Under the pieces are notes generated by a model. That model did not search any database, was not told the origin of the DNA, and was given only the letters and a program-made list of their open reading frames with translations. The translations under genes were made by a program, and so were the position numbers. From Brachyspira pilosicoli (lineage in GTDB: Bacteria > Spirochaetota > Brachyspiria > Brachyspirales > Brachyspiraceae): 64,000 nucleotides of DNA. This document shows, in pieces, positions 12,545 through 17,800 of the stretch (positions are counted from its first letter, which is position 1; each line of letters opens with the position of its first letter). The DNA lies in contig NZ_JAWLPU010000002.1 in assembly GCF_036997485.1 (NCBI RefSeq), positions 62,001 through 126,000 of the forward strand, in the 5' to 3' direction.

Positions 12545-13752
12545 TTATTTATAAAAAACTTCTTTCCCAAAACCTTCATAAAACTTGCCATTATTATAAA
12601 CTACATTGCCTCTCACTATAGTAGTTATAACTTTCCCCCCTCTTTTAAAACCTATATAAGGCGACCAAGAAGATTTTGTTATTATATCTTTCTCTTCTAT
12701 AATAGATTCATCATTCAAATCTACTACTGCAAAATCAGCATCAAATCCTTCTTTTAGTAAACCTTTGTTTTTTATTGCGAATATTTTAGCAGCATTTTCG
12801 CTCATAATTTTTGTTAGAAGTTTTATATCTATAGTTGAATCTTTAACTTTTTTTAACATCAATTCTAATGAATGTTCTACAGAAGGTATGCCAAAAGTAA
12901 GTTTTTCTAATTTCTCACTTAATAAATGCGGTGCATGGTCTGTTCCTATTGTGTCTATCGTGCCGTCTACAATAGCATTCCATAATGCTTTATTATCTGA
13001 TTTTTCTCTAAGCTCTGGTTTCATTTTAAGAAGCATTTTATTTTTATCATTTTTATTAACATCTTCAGTATTCAAAAATAAGTGGTGTGGGGTAGCTTCA
13101 CCATAAATTATCATACCAGAATCTTTTGCTTTTTTTAGAGAATTAATTTCACTTTCTAATGATAAATGACATAAATATAATGGAGTATTTGTTTGTTTTG
13201 CTATTTCTATTGCTTTATCAACTTTTTTTTCTTCTGCATGTACTGTTACAATTTTTGAAGCTTCAAATAATTTATATAAAATTTTATCATCTTCAACAAG
13301 CATGTTTCCAGTAGAGGCATTAAAGAAAATTTTTGTAGAGGCAGCTTTGTCTATAATTTGTTTTATGTCTTCGGTGTTATCAGCCTTGCTTCCTCCAAAA
13401 TGAAAACCATAATCAACATAAGACTTGCCAATCATCATATTCTTTTTTTCTTCTAAATTTTCTTTTGTTATAGTGTTTGGAATAGTGTTAGGCATATCCA
13501 AGAATGTTGTAACACCGCCTCTTGCAGCAGCTTTACTTCCAGAAGAAAAGTCCTCTTTATGTGTAAGCCCAGGGTCTCTCATATGAGCATGTGGGTCTAT
13601 TATACCACATAAAACATAATTGTAATTAGCATCTATTATATTACTATCTTTATAGATTTCAAAATTATTATTAAAGTCTATTTTTTTTATCTTCTCATTT
13701 TCTATAATTATAGATACTGCATTATTATCTGCTAATTTAGCATTTTTTATTA

Positions 13753-13756
<4 letters not shown>
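12545..13756 (-). CDS. pyrC: Dihydroorotase
   Basis: Cyclises carbamoyl aspartate to dihydroorotate, step three of pyrimidine synthesis. The metal-binding 'DPHAHMRDPGLTHKEDF' (HxH, near residue 54), 'TTFLDMPNT', a His in 'VTVHAEE', a His in 'YGEATPHHLFL' and 'GTDHAPH' identify a class I dihydroorotase of the amidohydrolase superfamily. Its 403 residues are slightly short of the usual 420-430. The reading frame overlaps the end of pyrB by four bases (ATGA type), so translation is likely coupled, which fits the known physical association of class I dihydroorotases with aspartate carbamoyltransferase in some bacteria. Confidence 0.93.
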
Positions 13757-14832
<1,076 letters not shown>

Positions 14833-14867
14833 TTTAACATCCCTTAATAATTATAATTTTACAGCAT

Positions 14868-14912
14868 AAAAAAAGGGAATAAAATCACAAAATAGCGATT
14901 TTATTCCCTTTT
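14868..14912 (-). terminator. Intrinsic terminator (attenuator) in the pyrB leader
   Basis: On the minus strand AAAAGGGAATAAAATC (14912-14897) pairs perfectly over 16 bp with GATTTTATTCCCTTTT (14886-14871), around a 10-base loop. The stem runs into seven T residues (14874-14868). It lies 36 bases before pyrB and there is no minus-strand gene upstream that it could serve. The leader ORF stop codon (14887-14885) sits at the loop/right-arm boundary, so a ribosome at the end of the leader would block the stem. The T-run on the plus strand side is only four bases, which fixes the direction. Confidence 0.9.
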
Positions 14913-14992
14913 AAAAATTCTGCATTGGTTAATTTAAACAAACATAGAAAATGCGGCAATAAGTAAAATATATTTTTTATTATACCATTCAT
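14885..14992 (-). CDS. pyrB leader peptide (35 residues)
   Basis: ATG at 14992-14990 is preceded by AGGAA six bases upstream and opens a 35-codon frame ending in TGA at 14887-14885. The peptide starts 'MNGIIKNIFYLLPHF' and ends 'GNKIAIL'. The message is U-rich in the second third (UUU, UUA, UUG codons), and the last 10 codons are inside the terminator hairpin. This arrangement matches the E. coli pyrBI leader, where low UTP slows RNA polymerase in a U-rich tract, the ribosome closes the gap and prevents the hairpin. The peptide itself probably has no function. Size, ribosome site and overlap are seen; the mechanism is inferred. Confidence 0.75.
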   Translation of the reverse strand: MNGIIKNIFYLLPHFLCLFKLTNAEFLKGNKIAIL

Positions 14993-15022
14993 AATATTTC
15001 CTACACTGTATAAATTATACTG

Positions 15023-15050
15023 ATTATAAATTATAATAAAAAAAAATCAA
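15023..15050 (-). promoter_or_regulatory. Probable pyrB promoter
   Basis: On the minus strand TTGATT (15050-15045), a 16-base spacer and TATAAT (15028-15023) form a good sigma-70 promoter. Start of transcription would be near 15016, giving about 24 bases before the leader ORF. Two other TATAAT hexamers (15035-15030 and 15019-15014) are near, but no comparable -35 element goes with them. Confidence 0.6.
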
Positions 15051-15477: not shown

Positions 15478-15870
15478 ATGGAAAAAAATAAAAAAAATAA
15501 TAAACAAAAAAATATAATAGAAAGCTATGAAGACAATTGTGAAACCAACACAAAAGAAGAGAATATATCTTCTTATATACCAAAGCTTCCAAATGATGAT
15601 GAGTTTACAGTTTTAGCTAATTTCTTTTCTGTGTTTTCTGACCCAACCAGATTAAAAATAATATCTGTTTTAAGCGAGAAGGAATTATGCGTTCATGAAT
15701 TAGTATCTTTGCTTGATATGAAGCAGCCTTCTGTATCTCAGCATTTAAAGATGTTATGGCAGGCTAGGGTGGTAAAGAAGAGAAAAATTGGGCTTCATGT
15801 ATTTTACAGGCTTGATGATGAACATATAGAAAAAATTTATGCTTGGGGGTATGAGCATGTTAAAGAATAA
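15478..15870 (+). CDS. ArsR/SmtB-family zinc-responsive repressor
   Basis: A 130-residue winged-helix metal sensor that should repress its own operon and leave DNA when it binds metal. The core is 'FSDPTRLKIISVLSEKELCV', the recognition helix 'KQPSVSQHLKMLWQA', and the wing 'KRKIGLHVFYRLD'. The C-terminal helix has D114-x-H116 and H127-x2-E130, exactly the spacing of the alpha-5 zinc site in SmtB/CzrA. C71-V-H73 in the third helix and C21 near the N-terminus could form an alpha-3N type site as in CadC. Zinc is therefore the likeliest signal, with cadmium or lead possible. TAGGA is seven bases before the ATG. The gene overlaps the start of the ATPase gene by 14 bases. Confidence 0.9.
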   Translation: MEKNKKNNKQKNIIESYEDNCETNTKEENISSYIPKLPNDDEFTVLANFFSVFSDPTRLKIISVLSEKELCVHELVSLLDMKQPSVSQHLKMLWQARVVKKRKIGLHVFYRLDDEHIEKIYAWGYEHVKE

Positions 15871-17800
15871 AGAAAAAGTTTTATTTATTGGAGAAATTAC
15901 TATTTCTTTAATTGTTTTAATTTTAATGCATTTTTTGCATGATAAGATTCATGGTGTAATAGAATATATAATATTTTTTATACCTTATTTTATTTTGGGA
16001 AGAGACGTTTTTAAAAATGCTATTTTAGATTTTGTGCATGGAAAGTTTATGAGAGAGAGTTTTCTTATGAGCATTGCTACTATTGGCGCTATAATACTTC
16101 ATCAATTACCTGAAGCATTGGCTGTACTTCTTTTTTACAGAATAGGTGAATATTTTGAGGATATGGCAGTTGATAAATCTAAAAGAACAATAGCAGCACT
16201 CATGTCTATAAGAGCAGATTTTGCTAATATCATAAAAGAAGATGGAACTATAAAAAAAGTTGATATTTCAAAAGTTAATATAAATGACAATATATTGATT
16301 AATCCTTTTGAGAAGGTGCCTTTAGATGCTGTTATTTATGAAGGAGAGAGCTGGCTTGATACTAAGGCTTTAACTGGAGAGAGCATGCCAAAAGATGTAA
16401 AGGTTAATGATGAAATTTTAGCTGGCACTATAAACGGAGAGAGTAGCATAAAAGCAAAAGTTATTAGAGTGTATGCAGAGTCATCAATAGCAAAGATATT
16501 AAAATTAGTTCAAGAATCTCAAAACAGAAAAGCAAACATAGAACAGTTCATTACAAAGTTTGCTGGAATATATACTCCTATAGTTGTATTTGGAGCTATT
16601 TTACTTACTATAATACCTACAATAGTATATGGAAGAGAGTTTTTTAATGATTGGTTTGCCCGTTCACTTACATTGCTTGTAGTTTCTTGTCCTTGTGCTT
16701 TTATGGTTGGTATTCCATTAACATATTTTGCTTCTATAGGACGAGCTTCAAAGTTTGGTATAATGGTTAAAGGCGGAGTATTTTTAGATTTGCTTGCTCA
16801 AACTAAAAAAGTAATATTCGATAAAACAGGAACTCTCACTAAAGGTAAGTTTTATATAAGAGAAATAGAAAATGCTGGTATATATGATGATGATACATTA
16901 ATTAAATATGCAGCTTTGGCAGAAATAGGCTCTTCACATCCTATAGCAATATCTATAGTAGAGCATTATAAAAAAAATCATAACATAAATGAAAGCTTAA
17001 TAACATCACATAAAGATATTAGAGGTAAAGGTTCAGCATCAATTATTGAAGGAAAAAATATTTTAATAGGAAAGCTTGATTTATTAAAACAAAATAACAT
17101 AAATCTTCCAGATAATATTAATAATAAGTTTAATGTTTATATTTCAATAGATGGCGAATATGCTGGTGCTTTTTATATTGATGATATTATAAAAGATGAT
17201 ACTAAAGAGGCTATTGATTTATTAAATTCTATGAATATAGAAACTGCTTTAATTAGCGGCGATAATATAGAACGCGTTACTTCATTTGCAAAAGAGAATA
17301 ATATACAATCATTTAATGGAGGATGCTTACCAGAAGAGAAAGTAAATGTATTAGAAGGCATGATGAAAGAGAGTAAAGTTTCAATATTTGTAGGCGATGG
17401 AATAAATGATGCTCCTTCTTTGGCTCGTGCGGATATTGGTATTGCTATGGGAGGGCTTGGTTCTGATGCGGCTATAGAAAATGCTGATGTTATTATAATG
17501 GACGATAAGCCTTCTAAAGTAGCTGCTATTATTAAGCTTGCTAAAAAGAATCATATTGTTGTTTTAGAAAATATATTGCTCGCATTAGTAATTAAATTTG
17601 GTGCTATAATACTTGGAGCTTTTGGACTTGCTTCTATAGCTCTTGCTATATTTGCTGATACTGGTGTTACTGTTATAGTTGTACTTAATGCTTTAAGGCT
17701 TCTTTATCCTATAGGGGAGAAATCAAATGTTGAAAATGTAAGTGCTAAAAATATAGATATAAAAGTAACAAGCTGTAATTGCGGGCATCATAGCCATTAA
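15857..17800 (+). CDS. P1B-type heavy-metal ATPase (zinc/cadmium/lead exporter)
   Basis: Pumps Zn(II)-type ions out of the cytoplasm. Motifs in order: actuator 'LTGES', transmembrane C278-P-C280, phosphorylation site D322-KTGT, 'SSHPI' of the nucleotide domain, 'GDGINDAP', and an Asp in the last membrane segment region ('FADTGVTVIVVLNALRLL') that binds zinc in ZntA. Length is 647 residues. No N-terminal HMA domain is present, but the C-terminus ends 'SCNCGHHSH', a short Cys/His tail that may bind metal instead. The start at 15857 follows GGGGG by seven bases; ATGs at 15839 and 15851 lack usable spacing. It overlaps the repressor gene, so the pair is one operon. Confidence 0.92.
   Translation: MLKNKEKVLFIGEITISLIVLILMHFLHDKIHGVIEYIIFFIPYFILGRDVFKNAILDFVHGKFMRESFLMSIATIGAIILHQLPEALAVLLFYRIGEYFEDMAVDKSKRTIAALMSIRADFANIIKEDGTIKKVDISKVNINDNILINPFEKVPLDAVIYEGESWLDTKALTGESMPKDVKVNDEILAGTINGESSIKAKVIRVYAESSIAKILKLVQESQNRKANIEQFITKFAGIYTPIVVFGAILLTIIPTIVYGREFFNDWFARSLTLLVVSCPCAFMVGIPLTYFASIGRASKFGIMVKGGVFLDLLAQTKKVIFDKTGTLTKGKFYIREIENAGIYDDDTLIKYAALAEIGSSHPIAISIVEHYKKNHNINESLITSHKDIRGKGSASIIEGKNILIGKLDLLKQNNINLPDNINNKFNVYISIDGEYAGAFYIDDIIKDDTKEAIDLLNSMNIETALISGDNIERVTSFAKENNIQSFNGGCLPEEKVNVLEGMMKESKVSIFVGDGINDAPSLARADIGIAMGGLGSDAAIENADVIIMDDKPSKVAAIIKLAKKNHIVVLENILLALVIKFGAIILGAFGLASIALAIFADTGVTVIVVLNALRLLYPIGEKSNVENVSAKNIDIKVTSCNCGHHSH

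Follow-up and report, generated by a model that had tools for sequence, protein, structure and literature searches.

The leader of pyrB in Brachyspira pilosicoli is probably a UTP-sensing transcription attenuator that would work through transcription–translation coupling, in the manner of the E. coli pyrBI operon. This reading draws on a 64-kb stretch of DNA (the window), in which pyrB and its upstream elements lie on the minus strand (Table 1), and on a sample of 26 Brachyspira genomes, 24 of which carry a true pyrB. Sequence comparison supports the shared architecture, selection for an open leader, a covarying terminator with no other conserved structure beside it, and a conserved AATTT and T-run.

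Table 1. Features of the pyrB region, in coordinates of the window.
Feature	Positions	Strand	Remarks
Promoter, sigma-70-type, TTGATT-16-TATAAT	15023..15050	-	TTGATT 15050-15045, 16-nt spacer, TATAAT 15028-15023
AATTTA, predicted transcription start and candidate UTP-slippage tract	15011..15016	-	6 nt 3' of -10
Leader Shine-Dalgarno AGGAA	14998..15002	-	read from sequence
Leader ORF, 35 codons (MNGIIKNIFYLLPHFLCLFKLTNAEFLKGNKIAIL)	14885..14992	-	ATG 14992, TGA 14885
T5-6 run (GAATTTTT(T)AAAA), conserved, candidate UTP-dependent pause	14913..14917	-	directly 5' of stem
Terminator hairpin (attenuator), 18 bp, 6-nt loop	14871..14912	-	fold and covariation
Terminator T7 tract	14868..14874	-	read from sequence
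pyrB Shine-Dalgarno AAGGG	14841..14845	-	read from sequence
pyrB, aspartate carbamoyltransferase catalytic chain with extra C-terminal tail	13753..14832	-	PF02729 and PF00185
pyrC-like dihydroorotase, overlapping pyrB end	12545..13756	-	amidohydrolase PF01979

The promoter, Shine-Dalgarno sequence, 35-codon leader ORF, hairpin and T7 tract were found where a preliminary description of this DNA had placed them; the stem is likewise present, but folding gives it 18 bp and a 6-nt loop, against the 16 bp first described. The hairpin (ΔG -23.9 kcal/mol, z = -9.8 in a single-sequence fold) is an intrinsic terminator standing between promoter and pyr gene, as in pyrBI, with the pyrB ATG at 14832, 38 nt 3' of it, and the leader stop 52 nt 5' of pyrB. 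A scan of 60 gene starts in the window gave two that closely follow a terminator on the same strand, and of these pyrB alone also had a leader ORF entering it. pyrB and the pyrC-like gene are presumably co-transcribed. The PyrB protein (359 aa) is ∼50 aa longer than the usual catalytic chain, similar to PyrB of Fusobacteriota (353–359); its tail (13753-13860) is Cys-rich (CQNKKC...CYYC) and resembles the zinc-binding end of PyrI, with no PyrI match found in PyrB by Pfam. Divergent from pyrB, at 15478-17800, lie an ArsR-type regulator and then a heavy-metal P-type ATPase-like gene.

The promoter, Shine-Dalgarno sequence, start codon and hairpin were kept in all 24 Brachyspira genomes with pyrB, and the promoter hexamers and their 16-nt spacing are conserved in the genus. 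The preliminary description had proposed comparing relatives for an open leader frame and for stem covariation, and both comparisons came out in favor of the attenuator. The leader frame is open as far as the stem in 24/24 species, while the other two frames contain 1–6 stops in most cases. Because a shuffled leader remains open in ∼10% of shuffles, any single leader is weak evidence; conservation of the open leader across the genus, by contrast, is strong evidence. Distances from start codon to stem (84, 88, 89, 90, 91, 94, 97, 99, 100 nt and others) are not constant modulo 3, so the stem is entered in varying frame and openness is the feature that is kept. Pairwise substitutions among 18 leaders, in which pairs are not independent, fell on codon positions 1/2/3 in the numbers 726/709/1312, and for the same non-independent pairs a dN/dS-like ratio of 0.67 was obtained in the leader frame versus 2.5 and 2.2 in the others. 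By these measures the leader is under selection to stay open, with coding-type substitutions, as would be expected of a pyrBI-type leader translated into its terminator, translation here being predicted.

Since the N-terminal half of the leader peptide is conserved among Brachyspira, the ORF might be regarded as a stand-alone small protein gene with its own terminator, with pyrB read from a separate promoter. However, conservation of the peptide ends at the genus, the ORF often passes the terminator or reaches pyrB, and the gap between terminator and pyrB (only ∼38–68 nt) holds no conserved promoter; we therefore consider this explanation very improbable. The position of the leader stop varies. 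It lies within the loop or at the right-arm edge in L001, L004, L006, L007 and L024, within the left arm in L005, and past the stem in the remaining Brachyspira leaders, some of which overlap pyrB. The preliminary description, which placed the stop at the loop/right-arm edge, was thus right for the source genome, but only a minority of relatives share this arrangement, which the genus as a whole does not conserve. L010 and L013 have leaders that extend over the pyrB start, as might be expected if the leader served mainly to couple translation to pyrB or to allow reinitiation there, and if the terminator acted as a constitutive but leaky brake. The stop lies far 5' of pyrB in the source genome and most Fusobacteriota, however, and pyrB retains its own Shine-Dalgarno sequence, leaving little probability to a coupling role of this sort.

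Analysis of 22 leaders with RNAalifold recovered the terminator as the sole conserved structure; neither a competing antiterminator nor an antiterminator/anti-antiterminator pair was present in the consensus. A single-sequence fold paired the 5' end with the leader over a long range, but this pairing was missing from the consensus and was discarded. Within the stem, 20 cells were changed on both sides, compared with 7.3 in shuffles (0/500 shuffles as high), and 95.5% of cells were paired versus 43–63% in slid alignments. Double changes occurred at 11/16 stem positions with Fusobacteriota included, where the use of single-sequence folds biases the count towards pairing. The leader had no Rfam match at the gathering score, weaker matches being attributable to chance.

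The element had been described as operating without PyrR. This proved wrong for the protein, whose gene was identified in 22/26 Brachyspira genomes including the source genome (∼187–194 bits, cut-off 138; 191 bits at G000:C3:1125-1643); only its RNA-binding site (Rfam RF00515) was not found, in any of the 26 genomes, by a search that does match in B. subtilis, Lactococcus and Thermus. In one genome (L166) the PyrR gene was located away from the pyr genes. The presence of the protein lends some weight to the alternative that PyrR, another RNA-binding protein or a ligand-binding RNA governs the terminator and that the leader ORF is a bystander; PyrR could act via an undescribed site. We nevertheless judge this unlikely: the known site was not found in the 26 genomes, no Rfam family was matched, the terminator alone is structurally conserved, and an open leader with codon-type substitutions would be left unexplained. 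The PyrR-dependent pyr attenuators of B. subtilis (RF00515) resemble the Brachyspira locus in having a terminator before pyr genes, and in the PyrR protein itself, but in Brachyspira neither the binding site nor the antiterminator/anti-antiterminator pair was found, and the locus has a leader predicted to be translated instead. PyrR of Brachyspira may serve only as uracil phosphoribosyltransferase.

An attenuator of the pyrBI kind would have a U-rich pause region between leader start and terminator. Mean T content of the leaders was 0.46 versus 0.325 in coding sequence of the window, a moderately unusual value, with ∼2% of sequence segments as high (7% for the L001 leader alone). Enrichment of T within A+T was weak (0.547 vs 0.453), and AT-rich DNA makes U-rich tracts cheap. 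The T5-6 run before the stem was retained as DNA in A1/A3, despite indels that shift the reading frame, and was missing in L024. Adjacent to the stem, GAATTTGGAATTTTTTAAAA encodes NLEFFK in one set of species and RIWNFLK in another; one DNA stretch read in two frames implies that the bases rather than the peptide are conserved there. The T5-6 run is a candidate UTP-dependent polymerase pause. These observations also bear on an amino-acid-sensing attenuator of the trp/his type, in which the ribosome would stall at particular codons of a translated leader before a terminator. The leader is rich in Phe, Leu, Ile and Lys, but no single control amino acid occurs in a run, species differ in the frame used for the peptide's second half, an alternative antiterminator hairpin was not found, and the function of the genes is pyrimidine synthesis. 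The chance that amino acid supply is the signal appears to be slight.

A second potential UTP-sensing device, missed by the preliminary description, was found at the promoter. Six bases past the -10, AATTT was invariant in 23/23 aligned promoters with variable flanking positions, and was followed by A or G (AATTTA in the source genome, AATTTG in several relatives); the 24th promoter (L024) has TATTT in its place. Transcription is predicted to begin at AATTT[A/G]. A reiterative start calls for an initial A with three or more T behind it, normally spaced from the -10; all 23 promoters have such a sequence, the start position being predicted. AATTT does not behave as a general start motif: of 32 TTGA-type promoter matches in the window, the pyrB promoter alone has it at such a distance. 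Three consecutive T after an E. coli start cause UTP-dependent slippage (PMC6245113), which this review treats in detail for carAB P1; it lists pyrBI with the operons in which slippage was first found. The E. coli pyrBI promoter reads TATAAT-GCCGGAC-AATTTG, placing AATTTG 7 nt past the -10, and the Brachyspira start would match this second sensor of pyrBI if slippage takes place. The UTP-dependent reiterative starts of E. coli carAB P1, codBA and upp likewise have a T-run directly after the start (PMC6245113), but are combined with other controls, whereas Brachyspira pairs its candidate start with an attenuator, as pyrBI does.

From these elements we infer the following sequence of events. A ribosome would load onto the leader ORF; at low UTP, RNA polymerase would slow at U-rich tracts, the last being the T5-6 run before the stem, allowing the ribosome to catch up, shield the hairpin's left arm and so act as antiterminator, and pyrBC would be transcribed. 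At high UTP, polymerase would outrun the ribosome, the hairpin would form and transcripts would end in the T7 tract. A second sensor may be supplied by the AATTT start, with high UTP promoting slippage and abortive AAUUUn RNAs. Coupling-dependent, UTP-sensitive attenuation of this kind has been described for E. coli pyrBI (PMC4491880, PMC5021804), with which the Brachyspira locus shares a promoter, a predicted AATTTG-type start, a Shine-Dalgarno sequence, a leader ORF, a T-rich stretch, and a terminator hairpin with T run before pyrB. The peptide and stem sequences are unrelated, however, and the Brachyspira stem is AT-rich; E. coli pyrL passes the terminator and ends 3 nt before pyrB, whereas the leader in the source genome stops in the stem; and pyrB is followed by pyrC in the source genome rather than by pyrI. 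The proposal that pyrBI-like logic operates here is strengthened by the covarying stem and the open leaders, with UTP sensing itself the inferred part. The leader peptides are by inspection unrelated to PyrL, which makes it unlikely that the Brachyspira and enteric elements are akin; descent from the latter is not supported, in keeping with the earlier suggestion of independent evolution.

Other pyrimidine genes of Brachyspira provide evidence on both sides. In front of carA (L176–L182, L198–L201) lies a separate leader ORF that enters a terminator; nine regions were scored open and two more were read by eye. The carA stem (AAGATTGG...CCAATCTT) differs from that of pyrB. For pyrK, the first gene of a pyrD-pyrFE run, a terminator was seen by eye in L193, L196 and L197 and none in L192 (the source genome) or L195; the leader passes through the terminator in L197 and ends 10–13 nt short of the stem in L193 and L196. 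Inspection by eye of eight regions upstream of pyrG revealed no leader terminator. The stems of pyrB, carA and pyrK have different sequences and no loop in common, which argues against a single stem-binding protein, and hence against PyrR or a similar RNA binder, and for blocking by the ribosome. On the other hand, the pyrK leaders that end before the stem, together with a carA leader that shows no coding constraint (dN/dS-like 1.8, few pairs), count against the coupling mechanism.

The pyrB attenuator is not an invention of Brachyspira, judging from the sequences of the nearest Fusobacteriota pyrB genes, most of which carry a related stem and layout. Brachyspira PyrB clusters with Fusobacteriota PyrB with 100/100 support (in a tree without Firmicutes), and a tree uniting it with other Spirochaetota was rejected (AU p = 0.00026). 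A terminator was present in 49 of 64 regions upstream of pyrB in Fusobacteriota, and under a strict rule 30 also had a leader ORF. Both occurred in 25 of the 30 closest regions, and in 23 of these 25 the stop fell -7 to +2 nt from the right-arm start, as in the source genome. Stems of the two groups are alike (GGAAT...ATTCC); both groups have a leader ORF and a T-rich leader, and a stop in the loop or right-arm edge is shared with the source genome. The peptides differ, the layout is missing in some families, and no AATTT start was seen by eye in Fusobacteriota pyrB regions, implying that this start is not essential to the attenuator. In other Spirochaetota, the detector found leader plus terminator in 0/40 upstream regions. 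Inspection by eye did reveal a pyrB terminator overlapped by a leader ORF in two other Spirochaetota families (L046, L049), with unrelated peptide and stem, possibly reflecting independent origins.

UTP-sensitive attenuation is, to the best of our knowledge, textbook enteric biology, and the few papers examined that deal with it are on E. coli. We tentatively propose, as a possibility that we rate below the attenuator itself, that in Brachyspira and Fusobacteriota much pyrimidine regulation (pyrBC, carAB and, in some species, pyrK-pyrD-pyrFE) proceeds through leader-ORF attenuators responding to UTP and polymerase speed, without a dedicated regulator; that the Brachyspira slippage start would complete the two-sensor design of E. 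coli pyrBI; and that the pyrB attenuator may have moved between phyla with its gene. A conserved version in two further phyla would also make it possible to test directly whether a slippage start at AATTT and the attenuator evolve in concert. If true in these two other phyla, UTP-sensitive attenuation would be a widespread solution that evolved repeatedly, and tight transcription–translation coupling would be implied in spirochaetes and fusobacteria.
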